This document shows positions 6,634-55,800 of a stretch of 64,000 nucleotides of DNA, one piece after another (the first letter of the stretch is position 1; every line of letters starts with the position of its first letter). The DNA is from Craspedostauros australis (Eukaryota; Bacillariophyta; Bacillariophyceae; Mastogloiales; Achnanthaceae). The position numbers and the translations under genes are program-made. The notes under the pieces were generated by a model, which searched no databases, was not told where the DNA came from, and saw only the letters and a list, made by a program, of their open reading frames with translations. The stretch is taken from positions 23,067-87,066 of the forward strand of contig JAMXDE010000084.1 of the NCBI GenBank assembly GCA_026770025.1, in the 5' to 3' direction.

Positions 6634-6700
6634 GGTGATGATGGTGAGAGTTGTTTGTTGCTGCGTTGGTGATGATGGAAACGTAGGATTTCAATCGTAA

Positions 6701-9318: not shown

Positions 9319-9429
9319 TTACTTCTCTGATTACAGCCTACTCATTTTCCTCTTCTTCATTACGCGCTCATTTCTCTGTCTACTGTTGTTGTGATTCACT
9401 CCTCTTCTGCAGCGGCAGCGCCATCGGCC

Positions 9430-30558: not shown

Positions 30559-30564
30559 CGACAC

Positions 30565-31435
30565 AAATTATGAGTGTCGCGACAATTCATCGCGTTGTGG
30601 CTGGTGCCATCTGCTCCGTTCTTTTTTGCCATCTGCACATCCACACGCCAATCTGTTCAATAGTATTCCAGAATATTATTCTATAATATAATAATATATA
30701 TAAAGTTCTACAACATCTGCTTTCAGTTGCGTCACTTATGGGTGTTGGGGGGATCTCTAATTGTGTTCTGGAACTTGTGTGTCCTGGTTATGTTTCCTCT
30801 TTCATCAACGGAGCCATGTAACTGTGTGTCCATTTTAAAAAAAGCTTGGTTGATTTCTCGTTGTTGCGATAGAGGACTCTCGCACTCCGCTCAGCCCTTC
30901 ACAAGCAAGCCTGCAAGGGAGCCACAGCCCGATAGCCACACCTTTCGAGGGGTGGCATCAGAGCTTCTCCCTTGGCGCAAGCCGAATAGATTTAAGTTCG
31001 TGCGCTCCAAGCTGATATGTTCTAAGCTTGCACAGTTCCGGCAAACTAGCAGCTCCATGCGTTAACCAAACATTAGCCAATCATGGTACTTTATTCTGCG
31101 TTGTTTGATTGTTCTTGTTGTCTTCATTGCTCCATGCTTGTCGCTGGGCTATCTCATTTGTAATCCATTTCAAACCACGACATCAAGGAGAACCACCGCA
31201 ACACATCCATGTCATGGGATTACATTGCATCACATGCTTCCTCCGCATCATCCGCATCATCCGCATCATCCACACCACTCTATGTTTATGCTTTCCTCTG
31301 ATCCACACCCACCTACAACAGCCAATTCATCCATACCCCACCCCACTGTACATCTTCTTGCCAAATCAACAACACGCCACATTCTTCCATCATTGATCCA
31401 TCCCATCCTTTCGATTGTCTCTCCACCCCTCACCT
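30565..31435. other. Intergenic stretch with AT-rich tract
   Basis: Bases about 30655-30705 are a TA-rich tract. No gene recognised. The right edge borders the element-2 LTR. Confidence 0.5.
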
Positions 31436-32232
31436 TGTCGAGATGTACATGTGAGTATATGTCAAGATGTACGTATATATGTGCATCGTTCACCCGTTAT
31501 TCTCTCATACGCACTTGGACGGTATAACTACATTCGTGTCAATAGTATACTGTGATTCGTCAGAATTACAGGGGAAACGGAACACACGAAAAGGGGCAAG
31601 ATTTCTGGAGGAAATTTGCAAATGACGATTTCTGAGAGAATTGGAAGATCGTCCGTCCATCCATCAATGGTACCAAGAGAATCTCGAGGTACTTCCCAAC
31701 TAAACCTCAGATGACGATATCATCTGACAGGCTACTGCATCACCAATGGAACGTGACATCTGGAGAGCAGAAGGACACCTACTGACGTCGACAGGATGTC
31801 ATCATGTCACCACGTCGACATCTGTCTCCAAGTCAGAGCAGGAGGCGAAGATCCGATGACCGAAGGACATCAGCATCATGGATACAGAAGGTGAACTTCA
31901 AATGGCGAGTAATCACGGAGTAGGAGCCAGTACTGAATGAACGGAGTGTCGAATACGGAGTACGTATCGAACACGGAGTATCGTGTACGACGAGCACACG
32001 ATGTTGAGAGAGAGAGAGAGAATACAGAGAGGAGCGAGAGAGCATCTCGCATACCGACTCATAGTCGGAGACTAAATCTACGAAACAGATTGAAGCACCA
32101 AGAGCCTCGGGCAAGAGAACTGGTGTACACCGAGAGGATCGGAGTAGCCAACTAATGAAATAGCAAACAGACGACTATCAACCAACACCATCTTCCACGA
32201 TCGTAGGTTACCGTGAGCGGAACTTGCCAACA
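31436..32232 (+). repeat. 5' LTR of element 2 (797 bp)
   Basis: Starts TGTCGAGATGTACATG and ends CGGAACTTGCCAACA, with a (GA)n run near 32010. Same family as 38551-39346 and, inverted, 12733-13533. Confidence 0.93.
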
Positions 32233-32244
32233 CGTTTATAAACG
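32233..32244 (+). other. 12 bp perfect palindrome at the primer-binding position of element 2
   Basis: CGTTTATAAACG directly follows the 5' LTR. It differs from element 1 only in the two central bases (AT instead of CG). No standard tRNA 3'-end complement is seen. Confidence 0.7.
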
Positions 32245-32314
32245 ATAGATCAGGGCGAGCCCGCGGATCGGATCGTGCGAGGAAGACGAACATCATTCAA
32301 GAGCAGCAGGCTGA

Positions 32315-35300
32315 ATGAGCGAGGAAGAGGAATTGAGAGAAATCCCTCTGTCCAACCCAACTGTCAAACAAGAAGAAGGTGCGAGTGAGACTCCACCACG
32401 AGAAGAGAAGGAAGCAGCCGCGGCTACTGTCCTATCAGGCGCAGACGCAAGCGCGATCGACGAGACCGAAGAAGAACGGTCTGCAAGGCTACACCGCGAG
32501 AAGGAGAGTATCCTCAAGGCGTACAAGCAAGAGGAGACTGGTGTGACGGAGAGCATTCGCACAACCAAACGAAGTGGTAAAAGTGAGATACCACCAGGAG
32601 GAGAATTTGTGAGCAAATCAACCCTCGCGAAACAACAAGCGAAAAACGAAGAATCGACAACACAGAAACAGACGGAAATCAAGGGCGCGAGCGCACCGAC
32701 AACGAAACAACGAATCAACATGGCGACATCAGCCAACATGAACAAGTGACGCATCAAGGCGCCGATGTTCAGCGGTGAACAGGAAGACTATAGCGCATGG
32801 GAGTCCCAAGCAAAGGCATACGCTCGTGCACAGAAGACGAGAGACGTGATGTTGGGCAAGACTAAGGTGCCAACAGTGAGCAAGATCGCGGCAGCCGCCG
32901 GTGAAGCCAAGGAAGCGATGGAAGAGATCTACGAGCTGGGATGTGACTGCTTCAGCGATCTGATCCTCATGATGGATGCAGAGAAAGGAAAAGGCAAGCA
33001 GGCCATCCAATACATCAACCAATGCATCTCCGACGACTACCCCGAAGGAGACGCACACGCAGCGTGGAACGTTCTCGCGGAGAAGTTCCGACCATCCGAC
33101 GCGGTGACGAAGATCAAACTCAAGCGCCAATTCAACAACGAAAAGATAAAGAGAGACACGGACCCAGACATCTACATCACACGACTCGAGGGTCTACGCT
33201 CGCGTCTTCACGATGTCAAGTACGAGATCACGGACGAGGAAATGATCATGCAAATCCTCAGCACGGTGAGCAACGAGTACAGTACACACATTGTGAACTT
33301 CCAACATCAACTCACGTACAATCCGGAACTGATTACCATCAACACGATCAGAGGAGTACTCCGCACTGCATACGCCACTCACAAAGGAGGCAAAGCGTAC
33401 ATCGACGACTTCCAAGACAGCAACACGAAGAGCAACGACACCGGCTTCACGAGCACCGGTAACTTCAAGGGTACTTGCCACAACTGTGGCGTGTATGGTC
33501 ATAGATCCGCCGATTGTCCAGAACGCAAGAAATCGAACAACAAGAAAAACAACAACAACAACAAGATGAACGGAAAGCGCAACAACAACCGCAACAAGGG
33601 AAGCGGCTTCAACGGGAAGTGCAACTACTGTGGCATCTTCGGACATCGCGAGGCGGAGTGCCAAAAGAAGAAGTTCAACGAGAAGAAGAAGAACAACGAA
33701 CAAGCCAACGCGGCAACGGAAGGACACGACAAGAGCGGGCACGAGATGGTACTCTTGGCGAAAGACATGCTGCTCTGCATGTTGGTGTCCGACGACTACA
33801 TTGAAGACTCCTTCTTCGATAACTTCGAATACGTCGGAAGTGACGACGAAGTACAGGACGATGAGATCGTTCCTGAGTGGCTCAGTGAGGAGCCAATCAT
33901 CCACGAGGTGGATCCAAGACGCGAAGTGAGCTACGAATGCTGCTTCAACGCGCACGACCTGATCGGTTCATACGGCGACGCAGCCAAGATGGACAGCGAA
34001 GCCATCGATAGTGACATCGAAGAGGCAATGAGCGAAGACAACGAGGACGCCGACAAGAGCGGCTCAGACGAAGACGCCGACGAGGACAGCGCAGATGGAG
34101 ACGACGACGACACCATCAGAGACGGGGCGAACCGCGCCGAGGCGCCGCCTCCAGCAGCAATGCGAAACGAGAGAACGGGCATCTTCGATGAAGAGGACAG
34201 CGACGAAGCTGAGGACCGTCCAAGCGATACGTTCAATCCGTATGAACACGTCGTCTATCCAATCCGAATCCAATTCCCACCGGAACCAAATCCCAGAAGA
34301 GTCGACGACATCTACCGACTCCAGACCTTCCCGGAACCAACGGTCACTGCAAAACGAATGCAGAAGCAGCTCATCTACGATGCGGTTCTAACAGCTGCAT
34401 TACCGATGTTCCCAGGGTTCGTGAACGAACCACTGCGATACATTTGGGTGAACATGGTAAGCACCATCCTATCCGATAACTTCAAATCAATTGAGGAGAT
34501 CCTCGCAAACGCAGCCATCCTCAACCGACTACTGCAAGCAAACGAAGAGGAGGAACTCTCCGAATTGGATTTGCACTATGTGCTTGGAGGATGCATGCAG
34601 GTGCTCCTGCGCGAGCGACCACGCGTCACACCGCATGACACGGTCACCGGAGTTCATCGAAACAGTACAGTGCCAGCGCACTTCGCTGAACTACCAAGCG
34701 ACGACGAAGCTGATGAGAATCACAATCCATACAACGAAGATGGAGTGCATGAAGATGAAGAGGCAGACGGCCTCATGGATGAGATGGCTACAGCCGCCGT
34801 GGAGCAGCTCCACGAGCTGAGCACTCGATACAAAGACAAGGTCAACAAGGACACCTGGCTCGCTGACAGTGGAGCTTCGTGTCACATCGTCAATTCAGAC
34901 GCCGCTCTCTTCAACGTGCGGCACATCAAGTCATTCGTCCAAGTGGGAGACAGCACGAAGCTGGACTCTCCCAAAATGGGATCCATTCGCTTGAAGGTCA
35001 AGCAACGAGACAACACTGGCCACATCATCCGGCTCGATGATGTGAAGTACACACCGAAAATGGCGGTGAACCTTTTCTCCACGAACAAGGCTCTGTACAA
35101 CGGTTACCAGCTTGGTAACAACGGCATTCTGATGGACATCATCAACGGATCCGGAACGAAGATCGTATTCGACCGAGTCTTCCCCACATCCAACAGATTC
35201 ATCACGGGAGTGCAGATGCATCCCATCATGCCAACAGATGACGACAAGGCTTGCACAGCCATCATCAAGAATCCATCCAAGGAGATCAGCGCGGTGAATC

Positions 35301-36154
35301 TGCATCGAATGCTCGGCCACGCGCCACTCGAGACCATGAAGCGGACAGCCGCCCAATACGGATGGAAGATCATCGGCGAGATGCCGGTATGTCGCGACTG
35401 CGCAGTCGCGAACGCAAGAGTGAAGAACATCCCGAAGGCAACCATTCCAAGAACGACTCGCCGCGGCGAACGGCTCTTCATTGACATTAGTTACACTAAA
35501 CACATAAGCTTCGGAGATAAACGCTACTGGACCCTGATCGTGGACAACTGCACGGATCACTGCTGGAGTTTCTTTCTCAAGAACAAAAGTGATCAACCAG
35601 GGTACATCAAACGATTCATCCAAACGATCAAGTCACAGACTGGTGACCAACAGATCATCTTCCGAGGTGACAACAGCGGAGAGAACAAATCCACGCAGGA
35701 TATTCTCATCGATGCAGGACTGAACGTGAAATTCGAATTCATGGCATCGAACACGCCGCAACAGAACGGCAGAGTGGAACGCAAGTTCGCGTACCTCTAT
35801 ACCAAGATCCGCTCCATGCTCAATGGAGCACAGCTCGACGAAGAGTATAGGCATGGCCTGTGGGCAGCTGCTGCGAGCACTGCCACTGCCATCGCTAACA
35901 TCACCGTAGCGAAGAATCAAAAGGAGTCACCACATCGACAATTCTTTGGCAACGATCCACCATACGCAGATGCACTCCGCACATTCGGAGAGGTGGGTGT
36001 TGTGAAGACTACCTACGGCGGGATCACCGCTAAACTCAAGAATAGAGGAGAAGAGATGGTGTTCATCGGATATGCACACCAACATGCATCAGGGGTCTAC
36101 AACATGTACAGACCATCGACCAAGTCACTGATCTGCTCACGCGATATCAAGTGA
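32315..36154 (+). pseudogene. Copia Gag-protease-integrase, part 1 of a TGA-interrupted polyprotein
   Basis: One frame runs from ATG 32315 through TGA at 32747-32749 to TGA at 36152-36154. After the first TGA the Gag core begins (RIKAPMFSGEQEDYSAWES), aligning with the start of element 1 Gag; MATSANMNK just before the stop may be the ancestral Gag start, making the first ~135 residues an extension. Zinc knuckles CHNCGVYGHRSADC and CNYCGIFGHREAEC follow, then a long acidic region, protease WLADSGASCHI (Asp near residue 701 counted from 32765), the integrase HHCC segment (HRMLGH...CRDC) and core residues (LFIDISYT, IFRGDNSGEN, QQNGRVERK). The second TGA replaces a Trp found in element 1 (TWMNQSYGQ), so it looks like a nonsense mutation. 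Confidence 0.9.
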
Positions 36155-36265
36155 CTCAACCAATCATACGGACAGTTCCGTGGCTGGGCACCAGCACCGA
36201 ACATATCCAACGAAGTAGGAACAACGGACGCAGACGGCTTTACAACCATCGGACGGAAGGGAGCA

Positions 36266-38530
36266 ATGCCAAGGACGGCAACGTGTCAAGTATCAGAAGC
36301 GAAGAGAGTATCTTTCGCTGACAGCAACAGGTACTATATCCTATCGGACAGCGACGATGAGGATAATGAGGACGACGGAGTAGTGACTCAACTAATCCAC
36401 AACGACGAGGAAAATTGGAGCGAATCCAATCATGAGGATGACGAGATCATACCATCCGGCGACGAAGCCGACGATGACACAGGCGTCACTCCTCCGAATA
36501 CACCAGCGAGGTCTACACATGACGTACCATCCAGACCTCCACCCAACAAACCAAGCAAGCGTGACACAGCTAGAAAGGAGAGAATCCGACGTCATGAAGC
36601 ACGAGACAGGAAGGGAGAAGCTAATCCTAAGCCAACTACAGGGAAGAGTATTCCCAGAGCTCTGTGTGAGCTCGCAGACTTCAACGAACAAGGTCGAAAG
36701 GAGGAAGGCTATGAGAGCAAGTCATCATCCAATGACGATAGTGACGAACTCAGCGATGAGATAACCGACGAGTCCAACAACGAAACTACAGATGACGAAG
36801 AGATTGCAGATGAAGAAGAGATCGAAATCACTCATCATAGCACAACTGGACTATATGGGATGAACGCAATCATCACCGAGGCACCAATGATCGACATCGA
36901 ATTGTCGATGCAGGACGAGAACAAGGAACCAGAGAAGCACATCGAACCTACAACATTCGATGGAGCCTTCAATCATCCAGATCCCATCCATCGAAAGGGA
37001 TATCGAGCAGCCATCAAGAAGGAGTTCGACTCCATGAACACACGAAAGGTGTACAGCAAGATCAAACGAGACGCCATCCCACGCGGCCGCAGATGCTGCA
37101 AGTGCAAATGGGTCTTCAAGCTGAAACGCGACGGCACACATCGAGCACGGTTCGTTGCATGTGGCTACTCACAAATTGCAGGAGTAGACTTCCAAGAGTA
37201 CTACTCACCCGTCATTCATGACGTGACCTATTGGGTCATGATGGTGATCATGCTGATCAAGAAGATGGACTGCGCACTCGTCGATGTTGTAACGGCATTC
37301 CTACATGGAGACCTCAACGAGGAGATCTACATGAACTGTCCCAACAGGATGGATCATCAAGCAGACAAAGCCCTGACCCTACACAAGCCAATCTACGGAC
37401 TTGTGCAGAGCGCCAGGCAATGGTTCAAGATGTTGGTATCGACCCTCAAGGATATTAACTTCGAACAGAGCGCAGCAGACCTGTGCCTGTTCTACAGGAA
37501 GACGAACGAAGGAAGCATGATCGTGGCCATCTACGTGGACGATTGCTTCTGTTGCGGAGACTCCAAGGCATTGGAGACATTCCTGAAGGACATCCAAGGC
37601 AGCAAATTCAAGGTAACAATCGAGCGCGGACTCGGAGACTACCTCAGCTGCAACATCGAACTGAACCATGACAAGACCAAAGCAACATTACGTCAACCAC
37701 ACCTCATCCGACATCTCATCGAAGAATTCGGAACCAAGGTTGAGAAGATGCAACGCTACGGGACACCGGGAACCCCGGGTCAAATCATCGTACGACCATT
37801 CGAAGATAACGGACTACAGAAGGTCGGACTGGAAGAACATGCCGAATACCGCCGAGGCGTCGGTATGCTGCTCTTTCTCATCAAGCACTCGCGACCAGAT
37901 ATCGCGAACCCTGTGAGGGAACTCTCCAAGGTATTGATCGGGCCCACTAAGGCCGCAATGAAGGAGATGTATCGGATCATCAAGTATGTGATCGATACAA
38001 AGGACTATGGATTGAAGATCCATCCAGCGCGTCCAGACGACGACGGCTGGGACATGGAGCTCTTTTGCGATAGCGAATATGCAGGAGACAAGAACACGAG
38101 AATCAGCGTAGGGGGATTCATCCTATACCTGTGCAAGGTGCCAATCCTTTGGCGATCCAAGGCACAGAAGGCCATCACACTCAGCTCATCCGAAGCAGAC
38201 TACGTTGACCTTTCCGAAGCAGCAAAGGAGATCTTCTTCGTCATGCAGCTACTCGAAAGTGTGGGCGTCCCAGTGAAGACGCCGATCAAGGTCCGCATGG
38301 ACAACATTGGAGCAATCTTCATCGCCAAGAACCCATCAACATCCCAACGATCGCGGCACATCGACGTGCGCCATCACTACGTGAGGAACATGGTAATCAA
38401 CAAAACCATCGAAATCATTTTCGTTAAATCCGAGCAGAACACAAGCGACAGATTCACCAAGAACATCAAGGCCGACTTACAACGTGAACACGAGAAGTCG
38501 TACCTTGATACATCAAGAACATTCGAATGA
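36266..38530 (+). pseudogene. Copia RT-RNase H, part 2 of the TGA-interrupted polyprotein
   Basis: Continues in the same frame as the upstream part after the TGA at 36152; the frame is open from 36155, and the ATG at 36266 is only the first Met. RT motifs: WVFKLKRDGTHRARFVACGY, VDVVTAFLHGDL (catalytic Asp kept), YGLVQSARQW, and YVDDCFCCG at about residues 423-431. RNase H motifs: FCDSEYAGDKNTRISVGG, SSSEADYVDLSEA (the usual A in YVA is D here) and SDRFTKN (element 1 has ADGFTKN). These signature changes suggest loss of constraint. The stop is followed 20 bases later by the 3' LTR. Confidence 0.9.
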
Positions 38531-38540
38531 CCGAATGCAC

Positions 38541-38550
38541 ACAGGAAGGG
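38541..38550 (+). other. Polypurine tract of element 2
   Basis: ACAGGAAGGG directly before the 3' LTR start TGTCGAG. Confidence 0.8.
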
Positions 38551-39346
38551 TGTCGAGATGTACATGTGAGTATATGTCGAGATGTACGTGTATATGTGCA
38601 TCGTTCACCTGCTATTCTCTTATACATGTATGGACGGTACAACTACATTCGTGTTGATAATATGCTGTAAATTGGCAAAACCACAGTGGAAATGGAACAC
38701 AGAAACATGAGGAGAATTTCTGGAGGAAATTTGCAATCAATGATTTCTGAGAGAATTGGAAGATCGTCCGTCCATCCATCAATGGAAACGTATGGTATCG
38801 AGCGAGCCTCGATGTACTTCCCAACAAAACCTCAAATGACAATATCCTCATCAAGCCATCGACATCATCGATGGAACGTGACATCTGGAGGAACAGGAAG
38901 ACGACAGCTGAAGTCGACAGGATGTCATCATGTCACCACGTCGACATCTGTCTCCATGTCAGAAGCAGAAAGTGAAGATTCGATGACCAAAGGGCATCAA
39001 GATTGTGGATACACGAGGAGGAGTTCAAGTGGCAAGCACTCATGGAGTGGCAAGCCAGTAGTGAATGAACGAAGTGTCGAATGTGGAGTACACATTGAAC
39101 ACAGAGTATTGTGTAGCATGAACACACAACATTGAGAGAGAGAGAGAGAGAATACGAATAGCAGCGAGAGAGCATCTTGTGCACTGACTCGTAGTCGGAG
39201 ACCCAATCTACGAAACAGACAGATACGCCAAGAGCATCGGGCAAGAGAACAGAGACATCAAGAGGATCGGAGTGCTCAAGTAATGAAATATCAAACAGAA
39301 TGACTATCCACGATCGTAGGCTTCCGAGGTCCGGAACTTGCCAACA
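38551..39346 (+). repeat. 3' LTR of element 2 (796 bp)
   Basis: Starts TGTCGAGATGTACATG and ends CGGAACTTGCCAACA. Clearly diverged from the 5' LTR, so the element is old or recombinant. Confidence 0.93.
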
Positions 39347-39559
39347 GCTTGTCACTCCAAGTCGTTGTGGCATACGTGTTTCACTTCAGCTATTTTGCGA
39401 CCTATGGTAATTGTCATTATTCCCGTTTCTCCCTGTGAGTTGAGTCCAAACGCAGCGCCAGCGGCTTTCGACCCGCAGACAAGGAGGGGCAGTGCCATCT
39501 GCACACAATTCGCCGCTTCATCAAATGGAGTGGTCGCGACGGCAACGACAACAGCGACA

Positions 39560-40840
39560 GAGATAGCCACAGCAAGGCGATGGGCGACGAAAGCAACAGC
39601 AAGGCGACGGCAGCGACGAAGGTAATGAAAGCGATGGCAAGGCGATGGGCGACGGCAACGGCAGCAAGACGATGGGCAACGAAAGCGACAGCAATGGCAA
39701 GGTGATGAGCGACAGCACCGACGAAAGCGATGAAAGCAACAGCAAGGTGATGGAGGACAGCAGTGACACAGATAGCCACAGCAAGGCGATGGAAGTGACA
39801 GAAGTGATGAAAGCGACGGCAAGGCGACGGAGAACAGCAGCGACGAAAGCGACGGCAATGGCAAGGTGATGGGCAATGAAAGCGATGGCAAGGTGATGGA
39901 GGACAGCAGTGATGAAAGTGATGAAAGCAACAGCAATGGCAAGGCGATGGGCAACAGCACCAACAAAAGCAATGAAAGCACGGCAAGGCGATGGGCAACA
40001 GCACCAACAAAAGCGATGAAAGCGACAGCAATGGCAAGGTGATGGGCGACAGCACCGGCAAAAGCGATGAAAGCAACAGCAATGGCAAGGCGATGGACAA
40101 TGAAAGCGATGAAAGCGACAGCAATGGCAAGGCGATGGGCGACAGCACCAACAAAAGCGATGAAAGCGACAGCAATGGCAAGGCGATGGGCAACAGCACC
40201 GGCGAAAGCGATGAAAGCGACAGCAAGGCGATGGGCAATGAAAGCGATGAAAGCGACAGCGATGGCAAGGCGATGGGCGACAGCGCCGGCGAAAGCGATG
40301 GAAGCGACGGCAAGGCGATGGGCAATGAAAGCGACAGCAATGGCAAGGCGATGGGCGACAGCACCGGCAAAAGTGATGAAAGCAATGGCAAGGCAATGGG
40401 CAATGAAAGCAATGAAAGCGACAGCAATGGCAAGGCGATGGGTGACAGCACCAACAAAAGCAATGAAAGCATGGCAAGGCGATGGGCAACAGCACCGATG
40501 AAAGCGATGAAAGCGACAGCAATGGCAAGGCGATGGGCAACGAAAGCGATGAAAGCGACAACAATGGCAAGGCGATGGGCGACAGCACCAACAAAAGTGA
40601 TGAAAGCACAGCAAGGCGATGGGCCACGAAAGCGATGGGCAACGAAAGCGATGAAAGCGACAGCAATGGCAAGGCGATGGGCAACAGCACCGGCGAAAGC
40701 GATGAAAGCAACAGCAATGGCAAGGCAATGGGCGACAGCACCAACAAAAGCAATGAAAGCATGGCAAGGCGATGGGCAACAGCACCGATGAAAGCGACAG
40801 CAATGGCAAGGCGATGGGCAACGAAAGCGGCAGCGATAGG
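39560..40840 (+). repeat. 51/42 bp coding-frame minisatellite
   Basis: Units of 51 bp (and 42 bp variants) built from AGCGATGAAAGCGACAGC, AATGGCAAGGCGATGGGC and ACAGCACC. For example AATGGCAAGGCGATGG recurs at 40081, 40123 and 40174. Every unit length is a multiple of three, so frames stay open for 266 codons on the plus strand (GKAMGDSTxKSDESDSN units) and ~500 codons in each of three minus frames (Leu/Pro/Ser-, His/Cys- or Ala-rich). I cannot tell whether any is translated. The minus frame ending at 39352 has a non-repeat C-terminus (CVQMALPLLVCGSKAAGAAF), which could be a real exon end. Confidence 0.85.
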
Positions 40841-40965
40841 AAGGTTCGTAGTAGATCCACATTGCAACATCAAACCAAGTGTATTCTTTTGTTTCTTGAT
40901 GCTTGTAGATATGTATACAATAGACTGGTGAGATGGACAAGACCAGAAAGAAAGATAAAAAGAGA

Positions 40966-41454
40966 TCAGAGGGATACAACTGTAGAATATAACAGACTGC
41001 CAAAACCACTCCAAATTGTTTGCTTCAACTGTTCACAACTCTGATGGTATGCCTCTCCTGGGGCAGACCCATCAATGATTGTGCGATCTATATCGTCAAA
41101 GGAGACAACTGCCTGTGCATTCAACATAGTTGAAGCTCCATTTGTCAATATTCTGCTCCACTGGTCCCAGTATCGAAAAATGTCGCAGGCGACATGTTGC
41201 AGATGGTATGTTTGACGCTCGGTTTTTCTGGGACAGCTGCTCATTTTGATGACACCCACAGGGCACATCACTTTGGAAAATGCAGACATGTGTGCATACA
41301 AGTACTGGCCTCTCAGGTGTGCTGTGGGCTTTCCACCATCATTGTCCTCCTCCTTCTCTTCGTCGTGTCTGTTGTGATCTCTCAGGCTGCGGTTCTTGGG
41401 GCTGTCCTGTTCCTCGTCACATGTCCAGAAACACTCAGCAAGCACCAATTCCAA
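40966..41454 (-). other. Unassigned 162-residue ORF divergent from the transposase-like gene
   Basis: The minus-strand frame reads protein-like (YLYAHMSAFSKVMCPVGVI, HVACDIFRYWDQWSRILTNG). It starts 71 bases from the transposase ORF on the other strand, so the two could be a divergent pair of one mobile element. No domain recognised, and I find no counterpart beside the decayed transposase at 52.9-56.4 kb. Confidence 0.3.
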
Positions 41455-41525
41455 CAGTATCTTCGATTGTCTATATCAAACCACCCATCACCCTCCTTCG
41501 TTTGCCCTGACACCACCTTCGGATC

Positions 41526-44500
41526 ATGAGCCACCCACGCCCAAACTCTCCCCCCAACGCCCACCAGCCTTCACCAAAGGTTCACCGTCCTCTTGAAGGT
41601 CGCGATGTCCACTCTCCTCGCCAGGGGCTCAACCCTTATGCTCTCCCCTTCGTACCATCGGTGTCTCAGGACCAATCTAGGATGATTGCACCAGTGGCGC
41701 GCTTTGTACCATCCCCACCCCTCGCCAACTACCCGACCATTCTCTATGGTCCAACCCCTGCATCCCCTCCAACGCATGCCAACTACAACTATCCCACAGG
41801 AGGTGGGCACTACAACGCTGCGATGCCAACTGTTGGGTATGATGCAAACTTGCATTCTGCCTTTGTTGGCATCCCAAACTACCCCATGCCACCTATGGTT
41901 GCCGCACCTGCTCCATACGGTACCTCTCCAATGCCACCAATCGCACACGGCATGCCAATCACCTGCTTTGGCAACTTGGAATGTCAAGGTTGTGGTATCG
42001 TGTTCTGCGGTTGCTGCAATCCGGCATATGCAAGACTCTCGTTCTGCCCACAATGTGGAGCAAACCATGAAGGAGCTGGGCAGGTGGGCTTTGCCCCAGA
42101 TGGTGGCAATCAAAACCACTCCGAAACAGCACCTCGTCCGCATGTCCAAGCAAATCGCAGTGTTGTCATGTCTGCTCCAGTCCCAACCAGCATTGACAAC
42201 AATCGCGATGGTGATACAATGATGGGTGACACTATCATCAACAACGAAGCCTCAGCCCCTGGATGGCCAACATGGACGAAGGATATGTCTGCAAAACAGA
42301 AGCTGCTATCCCTCTTCAGGATGACAGGCAGGGATCCAGGCGCACTGAGGAACTTCCCAAAGGGCGGATACCCAGGGATTTCAACCAAGTCCAACAGATA
42401 TCATTGGGACTCCATGGAACGAGCATGGGAAGAACATGTTTCTATCTTTTGGAATGCAGCTGCCCCCAACACGATGGCTCCACCCCAACTGTGTGATGTC
42501 ATCAAGTATGTCCGGCACAACAAGGCTCTCTCTCTCACAGGTTTAGAGGAGACTGTCTGTCACGTTGCCTTCTTTGGAAATGACGACTTCTCTAAAGCTG
42601 CACGTGCGATGCTGGCATGCACATGTGGTGCCACAGAATGTGAGCGCATCCTGCAAGTGCACCATCATGCCCTACCAGCAGAAGAACAAGCCAAGGTTGT
42701 CAACACTCGAATTGCCATGCGCCAAGACACGCACGGCCGATTCAAGGATTTGGCGGGCACCCTTCTATCTGGGAAGTCAATTCCAAAAATAGAGCGGCCT
42801 TACCGTCCACCCGAAGACTCCCTCAAGAACGCCATCTCGTACATCACAACCATTGGGCACTACAAGGGCGGAAGATCGCGTACTGTGATGCTCGATGGCA
42901 TTGTCTACGATAATTTGCCAATCTTTGTTCGCGACAGTACTCCTTCAAGGGAACTGTTCCGCGACTACATCAAGGACAATGACAATGCAGTCGGCTTTCC
43001 CACCTTCCGCGACCTCCTCAAGCTGCTGACAAGATGTGGCACTTCACACACCGCCTTGTCCTCCTACTACATGGACATGTCGAACGTCATTACTGAATTC
43101 AAACTCATGATGGAAAGGATCTTGGAATTACTCCCTGACATCGACGCGACCACAGATCTGCGTGCCGAAGTTGCGATGCTGGTGAATGATGCCGACGCTA
43201 CTTTCACCTTTGTGAGATGGGAGTATACCAACTCCCATATGCAAATTGAGTGTGATGATGACCATCTCCACTCTGCAACATTTGCTCTCACCGAATGTGA
43301 TCGGCAGCCATCGAAGCACGTCTGCAAGAAATGCGCTGCTGCCATGACATTCTTTCCAATCCGTGCCAAGACAGCTGTCGAAGCTGCTAGGCAATGGATT
43401 ACAGATGACGACGTTTTGGAGGAGGTGGAAACAATGCCACACGCAGTCGACTTCTGCAGCAACCAGATGAAAATCTACATGGCTCATCGGATCAGGGCGA
43501 TGGTGCAGTTCAAGCAAAGTGAGCGAAACAACCAATACTTGATGACCCACCCACATGCATGTGTCGCCACGATTGACCACAAGTGCAAGCTCCTCCCCAC
43601 CGCAAACGAAGAGACCCAAAGTGAATTCTTTGGAAAATCAGGAATGTCACTTCTGGGTGTGATGACAGTCGTCTTCACAGATGGAAGATTTGAACATCGA
43701 TTCATTGACCTTCTCATCGAGGGGCGCTCTACACAAGACACTCTACAGGTTGCTGGTGCACTGAAGCTTCTCCTCAGAGACATTCTACCCAAACTACACA
43801 ATGGTCTCGAGGAGGTCATTTTTCAGAGTGACAATGCCAGCTGCTTTGCAAGCCCATCGGCAATCCGATTGATCCATGGTCTCAACAGAAATGAGCATGG
43901 GGTCACATTCGACATGAAGGGGTATGATAAGAAGCATCCCATTGCCGCTGTCAAGCTCAAATCCAAGTCCAAAACCGCTGTCAATAGCATCGACGCTGTC
44001 ACAACTGCCACATTCACGAGTACACCTGATGACGCTGCTGCTACTGCAATAGCCACATCTGCGAGTGCAGCTTGCAGTACCAAGGCGACGAAGAGGACAA
44101 CTGTTGGCATCATCACCAAGGTCAAAAAGAGTACGAAACGCCCAATCAAGGCCAAATGTGAACGGAAGGTGAAGAGGGCTGTGGGAAGGAAGTCTGTCGC
44201 GAAAACTCCGGAACAGAAAGCGCGAGCAAAGAGAATGGCGCAGAGAGCAAAACACAGACGCATCAAATCCAACGCGTTTTTGGTCGCGAAGCGAAAAAGT
44301 GAGGACCAAGCCATCAAGAACCGCGGATCAACGCCACCATCAAAACTACCCAAAATCACACAGTGGCTGTTCACAGAAGCTCAGACCGGCAAGAGTCCAG
44401 TGGATGGCCACTTTGGTATCGTGGGCAACGTTCTGAGACGAGCCATCAACCGCACAAAGGGCGCAAAGGGGTTGACAGAGAAAGGTATCTTCACCAACCT

Positions 44501-45485
44501 CGTAAAGCACAAAATCAAGGGGACGATCACCGTGCTTGCACATGCCGGCAAGTTGAAGGGCACCACTGTCATGCAATCCGATGGACTCGAAAACAAGCCA
44601 TTTCGAACAGAAGAGATTCCCTGCCGAGATGTGCATCAGGTGGACTTTCGCGATGACAGCGCTGTACTCACAGCATCCTCTGGTGTCACCGAGCCAGAGA
44701 TCATCGATCAAGAAAAGCTGGACAGCTACGACATCCAAGATCTGCAAATACACTTCGAAAGCGACGAAATCAAAGAGATCGAGCCTGCCTTTGTGAAGAC
44801 GCCAGGCGAAGCCAAGTCTCCGCCAACATACACAACACGCACGTCACGCGCTCGCGGCAAGCCTGATACTCCAAAAAGTGCCGTTCTCCGCGATCTCGTC
44901 ACAAATTGGGTCTTCGATTTCATCTCACAGCCACGCCCTGGCGACGAAGCCAACACCGTCACAGTTGAGCAGAAGGTCGAGGCTCCTGACTTTGTCGAAT
45001 CGGGTTGGGCAATCACATACACCAAAAAGGCGAGTACGAAATCATCCACGAAGACAGCATCCAGGAAAGCAACTGCAAATTTATCGTCATCATTGGCGTC
45101 ATCATCGGCGGCATCATCTGGATCAGCATCGCCAACTGTGAAATTGTCATCGAAGCCACCTGCCAAATCAACCGTGACACATCCCAATGCGTCGTCCTCT
45201 TCGGAATCCAAACCATTGTGGGCATCCGAACAAAAAATCAGGATGATGTCGCCCACAAAGAAGAAGAAGACACCACAGCTATCTGAAAAGGTCCGAAAAG
45301 CTGCGTGCGAGGTAATCCAAGAAAGCAAAGACAGGACCGACAGGATCACGTCGTATGCTGTGTTTGAATGGTTGATGGAAAGGGTAATGAAATATGATTG
45401 GGAGCAGAGAGTGTCGATCCAAGCCTCCTTCTTCAAATCGTTTCTGAGAAGTGGCGAGAAGAACGCCGAGTCCTCCACAGAATAG
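41526..45485 (+). CDS. Candidate D-D-E transposase (1319 aa), superfamily undetermined
   Basis: One long intact frame. The N-terminal ~130 residues are Pro-rich; a Cys cluster at about 147-182 (C-x5-C-x2-C ... CGCC ... CPQC) looks like a zinc ribbon. A second Cys pair (VCKKC) is at 600-603 after a Cys/His-containing segment. The proposed RNase H-like core has Asp684 in TIDHKCKLL, Asp769 in IFQSDNASCF and Glu951 in WLFTEAQTGKSPVDGHFG. All three are conserved in the decayed copy at 52.9-56.4 kb (LDHKQK, ILQSDNACCF, WIYTEAQT). A Lys/Arg-rich insertion (about 810-940) lies between the second Asp and the Glu, and the C-terminus is Ser/Lys-rich. That a relative sits between terminal inverted repeats supports a transposase role. 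I do not match it to a named superfamily. No TIRs found around this copy. Confidence 0.65.
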   Translation: MSHPRPNSPPNAHQPSPKVHRPLEGRDVHSPRQGLNPYALPFVPSVSQDQSRMIAPVARFVPSPPLANYPTILYGPTPASPPTHANYNYPTGGGHYNAAMPTVGYDANLHSAFVGIPNYPMPPMVAAPAPYGTSPMPPIAHGMPITCFGNLECQGCGIVFCGCCNPAYARLSFCPQCGANHEGAGQVGFAPDGGNQNHSETAPRPHVQANRSVVMSAPVPTSIDNNRDGDTMMGDTIINNEASAPGWPTWTKDMSAKQKLLSLFRMTGRDPGALRNFPKGGYPGISTKSNRYHWDSMERAWEEHVSIFWNAAAPNTMAPPQLCDVIKYVRHNKALSLTGLEETVCHVAFFGNDDFSKAARAMLACTCGATECERILQVHHHALPAEEQAKVVNTRIAMRQDTHGRFKDLAGTLLSGKSIPKIERPYRPPEDSLKNAISYITTIGHYKGGRSRTVMLDGIVYDNLPIFVRDSTPSRELFRDYIKDNDNAVGFPTFRDLLKLLTRCGTSHTALSSYYMDMSNVITEFKLMMERILELLPDIDATTDLRAEVAMLVNDADATFTFVRWEYTNSHMQIECDDDHLHSATFALTECDRQPSKHVCKKCAAAMTFFPIRAKTAVEAARQWITDDDVLEEVETMPHAVDFCSNQMKIYMAHRIRAMVQFKQSERNNQYLMTHPHACVATIDHKCKLLPTANEETQSEFFGKSGMSLLGVMTVVFTDGRFEHRFIDLLIEGRSTQDTLQVAGALKLLLRDILPKLHNGLEEVIFQSDNASCFASPSAIRLIHGLNRNEHGVTFDMKGYDKKHPIAAVKLKSKSKTAVNSIDAVTTATFTSTPDDAAATAIATSASAACSTKATKRTTVGIITKVKKSTKRPIKAKCERKVKRAVGRKSVAKTPEQKARAKRMAQRAKHRRIKSNAFLVAKRKSEDQAIKNRGSTPPSKLPKITQWLFTEAQTGKSPVDGHFGIVGNVLRRAINRTKGAKGLTEKGIFTNLVKHKIKGTITVLAHAGKLKGTTVMQSDGLENKPFRTEEIPCRDVHQVDFRDDSAVLTASSGVTEPEIIDQEKLDSYDIQDLQIHFESDEIKEIEPAFVKTPGEAKSPPTYTTRTSRARGKPDTPKSAVLRDLVTNWVFDFISQPRPGDEANTVTVEQKVEAPDFVESGWAITYTKKASTKSSTKTASRKATANLSSSLASSSAASSGSASPTVKLSSKPPAKSTVTHPNASSSSESKPLWASEQKIRMMSPTKKKKTPQLSEKVRKAACEVIQESKDRTDRITSYAVFEWLMERVMKYDWEQRVSIQASFFKSFLRSGEKNAESSTE

Positions 45486-48150
45486 AATAATGTCCCGAAA
45501 CAAGGAATGTACCATTCGACTATCGCATTCTGCTTCTAAACGTACTCCCGATGTACTCTGGTGGTGTGCTCTACTCGCATCGTAGTTGCTCCCTTCTCGT
45601 ATCATATCCATACTATAATCGCACCATACTATCTTCGCACTATACTCGCAGCTCCATACTCGTGAACTCGTCGTGCGACATGGTCGTCGTCAGATCTCTC
45701 TACAACACTCCATTCTTCATGTGCGCACTGCTGGAACAGGGAACAGGAAACAGGTACGAATCACGAGCGTCTTCATGGCATACCACGTCACCTCCGCCAT
45801 CGCAAAGACAGTCGGTTGTATCCACATTCACATCCGCGCATAACAGATATTGCGGTGGCGCTGCCCATAGCATTCAAGAGAGGTACGCTCTTCTTGCCTT
45901 GCTTCCGACACTACGCTGATACTCTCTGGGCGCGCAAGCAGCGACTCATCGTAAACATTGTCGAATCAACTTCATGATGGATAATCGGCGCAGACGTCGA
46001 CGACAGCATGATGATGTTTGGCATCCGCTTGCGACCTTCGCAATACGCAAAGCTTGGATCCATGCCTCCAAACAAACGAGAAGAAGATCCTGGGCTCGGC
46101 CACCTTCGCGTGCTGCTTCCTCAGTGGAGGATTCCATGATGGTGGCAGCCGATGTGTTGCCTGATGTGCAGCTGAGATATTCGTGGAGGCATGTCGACTA
46201 CCTTTTCAGCATCGTTGTTGTTGTGATCTTCGTTGTTTGTTGTGGTGCGTGCGTTTATGTTGATTTGCGCAGCCCGTTCCTCCCTCCGCCGTGCGCGTTT
46301 GTGTTCTTGTGCCTTGTCTGATGGTTGCGCTTTGCATGCCCACCATTTAGTGATGAATGTCGTTTGTTGCCAATAGACAGACCCGACGCCATCGATACGA
46401 CATGGCTCATTCATGAATGCGATCACAAAGTGAGGAACAGAACAAGCACACCACAACGACAGAGGCAACGACGACAATGTTGGATCATGTATGCAGGCGA
46501 ACCGAAGTTGTTTCTGATATGTGATAAGTGTCCATGGTTGCTGTTGCGTTGTTCACAAGCGGTCGCTGTGACATGTGTGATGCAAGAATGACAGTTGTAC
46601 TTCCTTCACGTGACCACAAATACAGAGATTTTTCCGAAGTGGTGAACACAACACACACCGCAACCATTGCTCATCTGCTCTCTGCCGATCAACCACGACG
46701 CAGACAATCAGTCATGGAACGCAGGGACGATGACAGTATTCGCTATCGCACACAAATTGCTTGAAGCTATTGTATTCTTATAGTACTGCACTATTGTACG
46801 GTGATAATCGCCTCTGCTCCACTGTACTCCACTCTACTATTTTGGCTCCATTCTCAAGCTGGCAGCTCGCGACGATCCTCAGCCTATCCCTCTCACTGAT
46901 TGTATTCCGTGTGGAAGGCAAGGATTGCAACACTCGAGCAAAACTGTCACATTCAACGCGCCCACCCCACAGATCAACAGATGCAAGAAAGGTCCAGGGG
47001 ACCACCCGATGTGATCGCGGCGGCCAAAAAGCTGTTGCGGCTAGCAGTTGTCCGCCCCTGACTTTACCTCCCATGCAAAAGTAGGCACGAAAAAAAAAAT
47101 GCAACTGATTTGCGCCAGCACTCGGCGGAATTGTTCGGCAGTGGAGCCCATTCTCGTGTTGTGTGTCTCTGCTCGATCCCTCAACATGACAAATTCAACG
47201 TCTGTCTCACCACCAGGCTCGGATTCTCTAAAACGTGCTCTGACGCCAGATCGTGCAAACGGACGCATGGAATTGGAAAAAATGTGGTCATTTGGTTCCT
47301 TCTTCCTGTCAAAATCGTGTTGCCATTTGCACAATGATGGCTGCCACAACAGGAAAGGTCAAAATCAACCGACAACGACACAAAACACAACACGAGAAAC
47401 AACAAAGGAAACGACGCTGCTGCCACCAGTCTCTTTCCGCATCGTGCCATCAGCTCAGCAGATGAACATGACGTCCCATGTTCAAGGGGAGCAACGCAGG
47501 TTGCGCAGGACTTTGTATTGACAAACTAAGCATCGCATTAAATAGTACAATGTTTTGCACACCACAGAATAAGTCATTGTGCTCCATTACATTATATTCT
47601 ATAATACTGTGCTGTGTGGTATTCGCAAGTGTTGCTGTTGCAGCTGATGCGCAGGGATGCCGCCGACGCTGTGCTGTTTGACACGACACGCCCAAAGGAG
47701 GAAACACCAAACCGAGCCAAATCACCAACAACGCGAGAAATCAACGCAACATCGAATCTGCCACAACGTCACCATCCACCCTGTTGGGTGTCATCGCCGT
47801 CTGATATCGACCGTCAACAACGTCATCATTTTCGTCCGCGGTGAAGACAATCCAGCCAGGTATTTGTGTCGTAGAAGCTAGCTAGATTTATCTAACCCTA
47901 ATGTACAACACGAAAAATCATGTTCTAATAATATCACGTTTCAGTATCTCAAATCCGCAGAAAAATACTGTACTTCGCTGAATGGGGCCGTAAGAGATCA
48001 TGGTTGTACTTGTGTAGAACTACATGCATTGATGGAGGTGTCAGCCAATGTGTCATAGTCGTACGCATACATGACCAGTAAAGCAATGCATGGGTGAAAC
48101 AAGCAGCCACGCACAACGTCGCATACCGAAAAGGATGGATGAAGGCGACC
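45486..48150. other. Intergenic stretch, no gene recognised
   Basis: Short frames, some Cys-rich (plus strand near 46500-46620: ICDKCP, then RCDMCDA in a shifted frame), none assignable. Two AT-rich spots lie near 46760-46800 and 47890-47960. Confidence 0.45.
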
Positions 48151-49177
48151 ATGGCAAGAGACGGAGATGGAGATGATGTTGATGATGACGAATGGGAAGT
48201 GGTGATGAGAAGCGACTGCAAACGTATCGCATCAATCAGCGACATCAGAAAGGAAGATATCAAGGCAATTGCATAGGTAAACAATCACATGATCAGCAGC
48301 AGCGCCCACGCTGGATGTGCCGTCGGCAGCTGAGATTCAATGCCTGCTGGACGAGTGCATTCATGAGACCGGATGCAGCAGCTTCTTCGGGGCCTGGAGC
48401 ACCAGCTGTTCGGAGATACTCCTTCTATTACGCCACCACTACGTGCACCATTACCACCAACGCCCGCTCATGCTGAAGCTCAAAGCGATGCATCGCAGCC
48501 ACAACTGCAAACGATGAGATGGAGGCACTGTGTCATCGGATCCACAAGTCGGAGAAATCATCTGCCAAGACATCAGCAACTTTTCCCATGGCTCGCCATC
48601 CTTGCCGGCTGCATTGGGGCCCGTGTGGCAGCTGGCGTGCGCTTGTGCCTTGCGTGATACCATCCAAACATGGCGGAAGCAACACCAACAAGCCAACAGT
48701 CGCGATACATTCATCCTGCGCCGTCCAGTTGCAGTGGAGTACGACGATCCATGCATGACGCCAGCGGATACCACCTTCCTTTTCCACACAACTCCTTCCA
48801 CACAATTCCTTCCGCACAATTCCTCCCACATCATTGAAACCAACGAACGCGGAAAGCATTTGATTGGCGACGACGATCTCGGCGACAACAGTGGTGGCCA
48901 GACCATCGTCGTCATGCCACACTGCCCAATGATGCTGTATGGTACACCAACGTGCTGTTCACTCACCAGGATCATCTGCAACGCAGCGGCATGATCATCA
49001 GCAATGTATTGGCCAAAGAGCATGCCTTGCTGTCCAGCCAGTCAGGCTGTGCTGCGAACGATACGGTCGTGCGTAGAACATCACGCTGCGCGAGTCACCA
49101 AAGGCGAGATCCAAGACGTGCCGGGCGCTCCATTGGATGTATCACTGATAGCTATCTTGCGAAATATGGTGAAGTAG
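48151..49177 (+). pseudogene. SRR1-like domain protein (copy 2, longer, frame broken)
   Basis: The likely start is ATG 48151 (MARDGDGDDVDDDEWEVV), the acidic DEW-x-VV start common in SRR1-like proteins. The core is read in pieces. First VGEIICQDISNFSHG, where the family has CYGIGNFS. Then FILRRPVAVEYDDPCMTPAD, where the family has YDPxF-TxxE. Then NERGKHLIGDD and TIVVMPHCPMMLY. The expected next block TNVLFT...DHL is in another frame, the same break as in copy 1. The likely C-terminus (LDVSLIAILRN, stop 49175-49177) is in a third frame. Introns could explain some shifts, but the break near 48937 has no room for a normal intron. Tail-to-tail with the BTB gene, 108 bases apart. Confidence 0.6.
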
Positions 49178-50739
49178 TTACTTCTCTGATTACAGCCTAT
49201 CCATTTCCTCTTCTTCATTTCGCGCTCACTTCTGTCTACTGTTGTTGTGATTCACTCCTCTTCTCCAGCGGCAGCGCCATCGGCCTCAGCCAGGTGCGAC
49301 GGACCGCACGAGGTTCATCAACGTTGCACGATCCATGTATGAATCCACTTGTGCTGTACCCTCGCTTTCATCCATGACCTTGTACAAATCCATCATGGAC
49401 ATGGCACTGTACTTGTCATCAACTTCATTGCTTGCCGCTCTCCCACTGCAGATGACATGGATGCCTTCAATCAGTCGAGGATGTTGACATAACTTGCTGA
49501 AATCTTCACGAGCGAGTAAAGTCTGCATGTTTCGAGCTGCCATCCTCGTTGCTGCATCCTTCAACACCACGCAGTTGTGTTGATCAGCGAATATCAACGC
49601 ATCTACCATGGTGTCCTCTGTGAGATGAGCGCGGGCCAACTCTGCTTCAAGAACAAGCTTGAGTCGCCAGAAGCCGAACTCGTTGGCCACAAGGATCAGC
49701 TGTTGTAGATCGTCCTGTCCATCGAGGGTGGGAGTTGGCTGGTCAGCGCCATCATCATCGTCATGAGCGCCATCGCGGGTATCAGTATCGTTGTCCGGAG
49801 TGCTGTGATCGAAGGATATCTCACCTGTGTAGATGCATTCGAGGACACGTTGGACATGTTTGGGTTGATGGTTGGGAAGAGGGATGAGCCTGCGGGTGAG
49901 GGCAGTGGCAGAATCAGTGCCGTCATCAATGCCGTCATCGACATGCTGATGTTGGATTCCTGAGTCGATCAATGTCTGAATGGACGGAACAGTGACCATG
50001 AGGACTCCGGAGTTTGCTTTGATTGGCTGTTGTTCGTTGCCTTGTCCGCACAGGAAGGTGGTGTCTGCCTTGGCCTCAGAACGAACAGCGCTGCGACGAT
50101 CTTGGCCGATGCTGATGTTGGTTGTTGTGTGGATTTTAGGATTGTCGTGCTTGGTTGGTGTTGTGATGGTGTTTGTGTGGCTTTGCTTGCGCACCTGCGT
50201 CTCTGTTTGCAGCTGTGTCTGCAGTTGCAAGTTGCGACGACTGAGATGGCCGAGACGCTTCATGATTGATGTCATCATCTTGACCTGATTGTACGCTTTG
50301 ATTAATTCGACGGGTGTTTCGTTGTTGTTGTTTTGGATGTCGATTATTGACCTTGGTTGATTCGATGAGGTACTCGACGCATTCAGACTTGTCGTTGTAG
50401 CATGCTCGATGAAGTGGAGTGTCGCCATCGTTGCTTGTGCAGTTGACATCGGCGTTGGTTGATTCGATGAGGTACTTGACACACTCCAGGTGGCCGTAGA
50501 TGCATGCCCAATGAAGGGGAGTGTAGCCATTGCAGCCTTTGACCTTGTTGACATCACGTCCTTCGTTCTGCTCCTTCCATTTCTTCAACACCGACAGATC
50601 ACCTGCCTTGGCAGCATGAAGGAGTTGATCGTCTGAGACATTCGGCATGTTGGTCGTTGGTTGTTGAGCTGTTGGTAGACAAACAATTGCTGGATGATTG
50701 CTCAATGTGTTCACGGTCTTATGATGAAGATGCTGACTG
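48726..50739. repeat. Segmental duplication, copy 2 (partner 8881-10975)
   Basis: Same orientation as copy 1. Similarity starts at CAGTTGCAGTGG and ends at ATGAAGATGCTG. On the left the SRR1-like gene continues upstream here but not in copy 1, so copy 2 is closer to the ancestral arrangement. On the right it abuts a hairpin repeat and then the TIR-bounded element. Confidence 0.9.
49286..50648 (-). pseudogene. Ankyrin repeat-BTB protein, frameshifted copy
   Basis: Starts at ATG 50648 (MPNVSDDQLLHAAKAGDL) with two ankyrin repeats (TPLHWACIYGHLECVKYLIE, TPLHRACYNDKSECVEYLIE), one fewer than copy 1. Near 50344-50346 there is one extra T (GTCGATTATTGACC against GTCGATATTGACC at 10475), which shifts the frame. 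The BTB and C-terminal part (49286 to ~50345) is open in the second frame and is over 90% like copy 1. Either a young pseudogene or a sequencing error. Confidence 0.8.
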
Positions 50740-52899: not shown

Positions 52900-55800
52900 T
52901 CATTGTTGGTCGCCACAATTCTGGATGTTGCTGTTGCTTTGCTTGTTGTGTTGGCTTCTGCCTTGATGAGAGCGGCCTCCTTCTTTTCTTTGCGTTGTTT
53001 GGCGTTGTACGCTGCAAAACAGCGACGCTTTTACGCGCCTGGGATTTGCGTGCAGTTGTACGTACCAGTCAGTTTTTGTTTTTTCGTCGCTCATCCAATT
53101 GTTCGTGTGCTTCGTGTTCGGATGGTCTGTTTTTTCGGATCCTTCCGCGGACGCTTCACAGATGTCCTTCAATTTGTCCGCGATGTAGTCTGGTAGTTTC
53201 GCTGGTTTTGCGCGTTGTTTTGCTCGCCCAGCCTTGTACTGCGAGTGGTGGGTGTTCGGTTTCCGCGGTTCTGGTCTTGTAGTGCCGTGGTGTGATCGGA
53301 TGGCAGGTGTCGTTGTCCGTCTGCGATGGCCTTGCCGAACGCCAGCGCCTTGCTCTCCGCCGCTGTGCGACCGCATTTTCGCGTCTTGTCCGTCTTCCTG
53401 GATGATTCGGACGTGATCGGCAGCTTCTCGGACGTGTACGATTCTTCCTCGGTGACGCCCCAACTCGTGATGGTCCACCCTTCCAATTCGGCACTTTTCA
53501 CCACGACGTCTTCCGTGATGCCAGATGCGGCACCAGTCGTGCCTGGTCATCGTCGTATTTCACCTCGTGAGTCTGACGTAACTGTTGTCCCACTTGCGCG
53601 GAATCGCCGTTTTTGGTGCACCAGGCAGCGTGGTGATGTTGCCTTCAAGGTCCGACGCGTCCACTAGTACTGTTGTTGTCCCCGCGATGCTGCCGGCTTG
53701 CAGTGCCCTTCGAAGACTTGGAACGGGGTCTTGATGTCATGTCCACTTTGCACGTATTTTCGCAGTACACGGGTGATGTACGCGAAGTGGGTGTCCAGCA
53801 TGCTCTTACGGTTTGGGCCTCTGTGTAGATCCACGCGATGATTTTTGGCCGCGTTTCGTCGGCCCTGAGGTTCTTGTTCAGTTTGGACGTGATGAGCGCG
53901 ATGTGCTCGTGGACTGGACGAAAACAACACGCGTTATCGCTCTGTAGGATGATTTCAGTCACGGATGGTGAGAATGTCTTTGACCTTTTTTTGCACAATG
54001 TCAAGGCAGTCCACCAACTTGAAGTGTGTCTTGCGTCGGTCTTCCATCGACCACAATGTCAATGAACCGAATAAGTAAAAATGTCATTGCGACACGTGAT
54101 GACCATCGCCCCAAGCAGTGACATTCCCTTCTTCCCCCAATATTCTTGTTTGGGCTTCGCCTTGGCCTGTCGGTAGAATTTTTTTGCTTATGGTCGAGTA
54201 CCACATAGGCTCTGTCAGGCTTATTGTGATCTGGGATTTGATAAAAGTTCGATCTGTCTGAATTGAACTTTTGCACGCACTTTGTGAGCCATATAATTGA
54301 TAATTTCGTTTGCGAACCCTGGTGCGGCGTCAAGCATTGTTTGCAATTCGTCTTTGTGTTCCGTGAGTTCGTTGTCCTTAAGCATTTCGACGAATGGGAC
54401 AAAACGATCATCACAAATCGCATTGCTGATTCCACAACGGTTGCATACTTTACACGGTTGGTCATTTGCGGCAGTTACAGGAATGTCATTTGTGGCCGGC
54501 GGAGGTGACAATTGTGACAGTGGTCTTCTTCTTCTCTGCACTTGTGCTTGTTGGTGCGTGGTTTGCGTTGGTTGGTTGATGTGGCGGATGGCTTCCTCTC
54601 TTCTTGTCTTTTTCGGGGTGAGGGCGAACGCGGCCGAATGCATCGGGTCATCACACAGAAGCTGCATGTGCGACGCAGTGAATTCCCATTTCACAAGATC
54701 ACAAGTAATTCGAGCGCATGCAAGAGGGATTCTGTTTCGCGGAATGTGCTGTGCAACGATGTCATCGGGGTCGTTTTCAACGTTTGATGCAGGATACTTA
54801 GTCTTCAAAAGGACGGCGATGCGGGAGACTGCGCGGTTCAGTGTCTCCATCGCCATCCAAAAATGACTGTCGAAAGAAGATAACCCTGTCTTGATCTTGG
54901 CTCTTGCGTGTGAGTATGTTGGTGATGTCAGTGAACGCAGGCATTCCGACGGGGTTATTGGTCGTGCCCGAATACATGCCGAATAATTCTGTGATCGTAG
55001 TTCCGCCACGATCGAACACAGGGACATCTCTCAAACTCCAACCCAGCCCACCGCCACCGTTGCTGACACAAGCCAGGTTTGTACGTTTGTCGTGGTCGAT
55101 GAGAAGGAGACGACGCCAGAAAGAGCGCATGCACTCACTCTATACTGAAGAAACTCTCTGTCCGGCAGCATCTCCCCTTCGCACAACCATGCCGTAGTTA
55201 GCACCGCAATGTTTTTTCTTTTTATAGTGAGTTGGCTGCGCGTCCTGAATTTGCGTTTCGGTTTGCCACGTCCCCGCTGTTTCCTTCCGAGGACAATCCC
55301 CTCAAGTGGTTCGACAGTTGAGAGCGGAAGCAGCTTTGACGGTGACTCAGACGCGGCGAGAACGGCTCTCGCAGGCGGTGGCCAGTGTTTCGTTACTCAC
55401 GAAGGCACAGATGGTGTCGAATTTAGGTCCCAGTGCTACTGGTGGCAAGTCCACGTGAGCGCGGACAAACGGCACAACCTGCTCTCCAGGGAGGAGAACA
55501 TGCCAGAGTGCACAGGCAACCATGACCCACACCTGTTTAGTTTTACTCCAAGTTGGCCTGTCGTATGCGCTCCCAAGAACGAATCCTTTCTTTGGCATCA
55601 GCTTCAAAACGTCAGGGTCGCTGTTTAGAGTTAAGCGCATCCATGACAGCAACTACTGCATCGTTGGCGCCACTCCTCTGCATGTTTTTTGCCTGACTTC
55701 GAGCGACCGTCCTTGCGCTTCTTTGTTGGTTCGCGTTCTTCCTGCGATTGCGTCCGTCCACGTAGTCCTCGTCACTGTCACCATCGCAATCAGCCTCCAA

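Follow-up and report, generated by a model that had tools for sequence, protein, structure and literature searches.

A 1,319-residue protein of the diatom Craspedostauros australis is very probably the transposase of a giant DNA transposon with terminal inverted repeats

Introduction

What kind of protein is encoded by a 1,319-codon open reading frame (ORF) in the genome of the diatom Craspedostauros australis, and does it belong to a named family? The ORF lies at positions 41526-45485 on the plus strand of a 64,000-nucleotide stretch of contig JAMXDE010000084.1 (C82:23067-87066, in a genome of 74.8 Mb and 90 contigs), referred to here as the window. An original prediction, made from the sequence, took the protein for a D-D-E transposase, possibly of an unnamed family, that had been recently active or kept by selection within a decayed neighborhood. 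Here we report that the protein is very probably (roughly 0.93) the transposase of a giant, ~20-kb DNA transposon with terminal inverted repeats (TIRs) that has multiplied in this diatom genome. The main point of the prediction is therefore right, because the checks on fold, copy number and ends all favor a transposase. The mobile unit, its ends, its target and the selection on its gene are established by comparison of sequences.

Results

An intact gene in many copies

The ORF is intact exactly as predicted, with 1,319 codons followed by a stop, and the longest stop-free run in 30 shuffled versions of the window was 277 codons. Its assignment as the transposase gene draws on the translation, on homologues and on selection on the gene. 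When the protein was searched against the genome, at least 61 stretches matched (35 of 1,096 candidates were scored). At least six copies, including that of the window, are near full length at 90–100% identity; four are free of stops and two have one internal stop, while the remaining matches of this subfamily (subfamily 1) are fragments. A second subfamily occupies 19 places at 36–39% identity, and its main pieces are stop-free in 15 places and interrupted by one TGA in four.

Across all 15 pairs of the six subfamily-1 copies, the ratio of nonsynonymous to synonymous divergence (dN/dS) lies between 0.203 and 0.307. Twelve copies of subfamily 2 (66 pairs) gave a median of 0.248 and a range of 0.178–0.592. 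These comparisons of sequence indicate that the transposase gene is under purifying selection. One copy, on C2, has 99% protein identity to that of the window, a synonymous divergence of 0.018 and one stop. Both the low ratios and this close copy bear out the suggestion of recent activity or selection.

The ends, the target site and the uninserted site

Comparison of copies also recovered the ends of the element. On the right, homology between the window and the copies on C2, C63 and C19 ends at one place, after CTGAATGGGGYC. A search for the left end gave two matches, with 28034 the fitting one. This match alone is not proof, because 13 of 100 shuffles also reached two. Stronger evidence for the left end, as read from sequence, comes from the flanks: a GTAA precedes the element (28030-28033) and another follows it (47990-47993), and the sequence of the two flanks joined by a single GTAA has two exact matches elsewhere and 14 more with one to three mismatches (control, 0). 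In both places that were fetched, homology runs across the joined-flank junction, as expected of an uninserted site. Together with the TIR pair, these features delimit a complete transposon copy of 19,956 bp on the plus strand (28034-47989), whose left arm contains a nested Ty1/copia element. Local alignment of each end with the reverse complement of the other gave imperfect TIRs of about 39 bp, at 28034-28072 (plus) and 47951-47989 (minus).

The original prediction placed the ORF among decayed sequence, and this holds in part. By tblastn, the minus strand outside the element carries a decayed transposase relative (about 53352-55028), whose frame shifts at the third acidic motif. However, the ORF itself sits inside a 20-kb element with recognizable ends and a nested retrotransposon.

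The same architecture was observed in subfamily 2. Homology of its C3 and C15 copies is confined to the interval bounded by their inverted repeats, 13.0 kb at 98.4% identity. The TIR is 47 bp long, at 95.7% identity, and begins GACCCGCCTGAGCCAAAATAGTACAC. With up to three mismatches this beginning is found at 28 forward and 27 reverse sites genome-wide, and a reversed-pattern control at none. These ends form 22 forward-reverse pairs with spacings of 12.9–30.1 kb, below 14.4 kb in 15 cases. Such a pair encloses 11 of the 19 subfamily-2 places. We then read 20 further TIR pairs of our own choosing, none of which was dropped: 10 of the 22 subfamily-2 pairs and 10 of 18 pairs of the TIR GRCCCCATTCAGGATAG. 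All 20 are flanked by a perfect 4-bp duplication. Counting the window, C3 and C15, 23/23 duplications fit NTAN, and 5/23 are TTAA.

Catalytic residues and predicted fold

The three acidic residues singled out in the original prediction are present and conserved. Counting the aligned proteins that have a letter at each column, D684 is found in 66/67, D769 in 67/69 and E951 in 62/62. Two further residues stand out, D960 and H962, each in 62/63. In two structural models the order of strands and helices is that of an RNase H-like fold, with D684 (codon at 43575-43577) and D769 (43830-43832), the predicted first and second catalytic aspartates, on core strand 1 and at the end of core strand 4. The predicted core superposes on retroviral integrases and on Mos1, in the latter case over 173 residues at 3.2 Å, in keeping with an RNase H-like fold.

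The identity of the third catalytic residue probably differs from the one first proposed. E951 (44376-44378) lies just past the fifth core strand. D960 (44403-44405), in contrast, is the third residue of the helix that follows this strand in both models (helix 719-737 in the first, 335-352 in the second). Because of this position, D960 is probably the better candidate for the third catalytic residue.

The long Lys-rich insertion noted before the glutamate is real. It spans 43890-44345 (plus strand), between the second and third acidic residues, and inspection of the window ORF revealed no obvious intron there. It is probably disordered, given its low predicted local distance difference test (pLDDT) scores in the model. 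D769 and E951 are separated by 181 residues in the window protein, whereas the gap is 31–37 residues in 48 of 51 measurable proteins, namely in all 48 relatives from other sources; the three proteins from this genome have gaps of 98, 99 and 181. The values of 98–99 belong to the second subfamily, which has its own, shorter and different Lys-rich insertion. At the other end of the protein, the Cys-rich N-terminus, in which a zinc ribbon had been suspected, pairs by eye in the alignments with Cys/His-rich N-termini of relatives.

Relatives and database searches

Three protein searches with overlapping results gave at least 2, 33 and at least 52 homologues among the matches listed. Nearly all are on metagenome contigs, with some in MMETSP/EukProt transcripts; among named sources, the diatom Dactyliosolen fragilissimus supplies the closest of these relatives, a transcript (P0004). 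In an alignment of 34 members that includes the window transposase, no Pfam model reached its cut-off for any member. Pfam rve, which covers Ginger/IS3EU and retroviral-type integrases, had no match at E <= 0.1 in these members, although the predicted fold aligns. No NCBIfam model reached its cut-off for the four proteins tried, and sequence searches of the PDB found no match to the family. We recognized no description of it in the open literature searched, a coverage that stops short of Repbase and most subscription papers.

In a 42-row tree, the window transposase (P0001) and the second-subfamily protein (P0035) form one clade with support of 100/100. A more distant group, the P0079-type proteins (978 residues; 53 member sequences), matches the family profile at E 3.2e-20, and its motifs MDWAMKF, RSDEAGCY and SEPQYGKDVCDR occupy the sites of the three acidic motifs. 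Its branch is very long, flagged at 10 changes per column, and its placement is unsure.

Derived, nested and neighboring elements

In a 6.3-kb locus on C2 (L085), 1.3 kb matches the transposon's left arm at 85% and 1.1 kb matches its right arm at 79%. The locus has a 37-bp TIR at 97% identity, and no stretch of it matches any of 79 family proteins. Because both ends are shared and no family protein is matched, sequence comparison identifies L085 as a non-autonomous derivative.

The nested Ty1/copia element occupies 31436-39346 (plus strand), with long terminal repeat (LTR)-like repeats at 31436-32232 and 38551-39346 and gag-pol frames at 32765-36154 and 36266-38530. The same element is nested in the transposon copies on C2, C63 and C19 (L031-L038), and its right-hand junction is identical in all four copies compared. 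Its LTR-like repeats are only 79% identical, yet the pol frame shows a dN/dS of 0.14–0.23 between copies. Elsewhere in the genome this copia family was scored at 59 places, with 92–100% identity and mostly with open frames of ~2,050–2,080 codons, and exchange with these other copies may lie behind the combination of diverged LTRs and constrained pol.

Between the nested element and the transposase gene lies a minisatellite array (39565-40822, plus strand; tandem-repeat analysis). Tandem arrays precede the transposase gene in both subfamilies, but their units are unrelated: overlapping periods of 16–165 bp in the window array and a 7-bp unit in subfamily 2 (L015:624-839). The C3 copy of subfamily 2 has a 508-residue frame antisense to the transposase (L040:722-2248, minus); it is disrupted in the C15 copy, and no Pfam model exceeds its cut-off on it. 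At C59:54112-67390 (L059/L060), two subfamily-2 TIR ends abut back to back, separated by just one ATAA, a layout that would result if one element had landed in the duplication flanking its neighbor. By eye, the pairs of GRCCCCATTCAGGATAG fall into sizes of ~6–8 kb (13/18) and 14–15 kb (4/18, for example C6:321145-335860), with one of 32 kb. The 14.7-kb pair on C6 holds a copia pol (C6:327215-329476), and a nested copia element added to the smaller size may thus account for the larger one.

Other features of the window lie apart from the transposon. A very young Ty1/copia element occupies 1-7394 on the minus strand; its ends (1-564 and 6831-7394), of 564 bases each, are 100% identical and enclose gag-pol at 640-5139 and 5158-6633. 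A duplicated stretch at 8881-10686 and 48726-50555 (92% identical) carries minus-strand ankyrin-repeat/BTB and BTB/BACK frames. Finally, 88 stretches of the genome exceed the cut-off for the silicic acid transporter Pfam family, about 30 of them spanning almost all of the model, compared with 0/14 control genomes. This number is unusually high, and, like the Dactyliosolen relative of the transposase, it fits a diatom genome.

Discussion

Several points weigh against the conclusion that the protein is the transposase of a mobile giant element. Mobility is read from sequence, and no transposition was observed. The fetched sequence does not extend to the left end of either the C2 or the C19 copy, and homology with the C63 copy stops within the nested element. 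Eight of the 19 subfamily-2 places lack a TIR pair at up to three mismatches. The fold match is modest in score, and in the models the third acid is ambiguous, since D960 and E951 are both near-invariant.

Accepting a transposase, there remains its name. No Pfam or NCBIfam model claims the protein, which the original prediction likewise could not match to a named DDE superfamily, but its 4-bp duplication, together with what may be a DDD triad, is reminiscent of Sola as published (PMC10741241). On such descriptions the family may be a Sola lineage or a superfamily still without a name. Either would be a refinement of the transposase assignment. That it is a divergent, and hence already named, lineage of Sola has close to an even chance. 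Sola is reported there as a DDD superfamily with 4-bp duplications and some elements above 15 kb, and a Sola1 family of 21.5 kb is described from the brown alga Ectocarpus (PMC12477816). The 4-bp duplication is present here in the window, C3, C15 and all 20 further pairs, and D960 makes a DDD triad of D684, D769 and D960 plausible. However, E951 is as conserved as D960, the duplications of Sola2 families are given as AWWT rather than NTAN (PMC3627910), and any homology to Sola transposases is putative.

It is slightly less likely that these elements form a superfamily yet to be named. Its members would be giant TIR elements, 13–20 kb long, that occur in diatoms and further microbial eukaryotes and combine an NTAN duplication with Cys/His-rich DDD/E transposases of ~900–1,300 residues; the lineage of this genome has a Lys-rich insertion, and the P0079-type proteins would be a distant sister group. 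The absence of matches in Pfam, NCBIfam and the PDB and of a recognized description is consistent with this, but Pfam and NCBIfam may miss transposon superfamilies, the duplication length and possible DDD triad fit Sola, and the P0079-type proteins are very distant and of unsure position.

It is very unlikely that another protein moves the element and that the ORF in it is a captured gene or a passenger. Giant transposons may bear extra genes (PMC12477816), and the window element does carry a nested Ty1/copia. Nevertheless, the ORF is kept in two subfamilies with no DNA similarity in their arms, and in metagenomic relatives, and it has a predicted integrase-like core; the antisense frame of the C3 copy, by comparison, is broken in C15. 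The transcribed Dactyliosolen relative might speak for a cellular gene, single-copy and conserved among diatoms, but this reading is ruled out for practical purposes by the multiple copies, the TIRs and target duplications around them, and the uninserted sites.

As a transposase, the protein would bind two metal ions in its predicted core through D684, D769 and, as third acid, either D960 or E951. The Cys/His-rich stretches and the Lys-rich insertion would help to contact the transposon ends or the target DNA. The enzyme would pair the GRCCC ends, cut them and join them across a 4-bp stagger at NTAN. Cut-and-paste would be the default mode, and a replicative mode is also possible.

Published work on diatom transposons deals mostly with LTR retrotransposons. 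Together, the window and its copies give a class II element in full: its ends, its target and the site before insertion are all recovered, along with a non-autonomous form and open-frame copies under selection. Automatic annotation gains a family absent from Pfam, a set of unannotated metagenomic proteins becomes readable as transposases, and the giant elements went on multiplying after a retrotransposon had nested inside them. A diatom study on LTR retrotransposons also mentions two uncharacterized transposase-containing element types in Phaeodactylum, one weakly related to piggyBac (PMC2806351); these may be relatives of the family described here.

Within this genome, the second subfamily (P0035, 1,216 residues) resembles the first in protein plan, Lys-rich insertion, 4-bp NTAN duplication and a TIR that starts GACCC. 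It differs in its low identity, arms, tandem array and the TIR past its first bases. The P0079-type proteins resemble the window transposase in the three motif positions and the profile match, and differ by their very large distance. Among characterized systems, Tc1/mariner transposases (Mos1, SETMAR) and retroviral integrases share the predicted RNase H-like core and, with the relatives, a D769-E951 spacing of ~35; they differ in having no sequence match to the window protein, which is far larger and has Cys/His-rich parts.

Target duplications separate the other candidates. Tc1/mariner is rejected for its 2-bp TA duplication (PMC10741241) against NTAN in 23/23 elements, and piggyBac and Kolobok for TTAA-only duplications (PMC9587614) against TTAA in 5/23. 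KDZ (Kyakuja-Dileera-Zisupton) also includes giant elements with long transposases (PMC12477816), but 8-bp duplications are given for Zisupton and a Dileera family (PMC12730594). Dada has duplications of 6–7 bp and no TIRs (PMC3706591). CMC fails on a tested feature. A C-x2-C between the equivalents of D769 and E951, a feature taken from PMC12730594, was not seen by eye in the 34-row alignment, and in relatives that lack the insertion this gap is only 31–37 residues. Sola, compared by description, shares with the window element its 4-bp target duplication, TIRs and a size that can exceed 15 kb, and may share a DDD transposase (PMC10741241).

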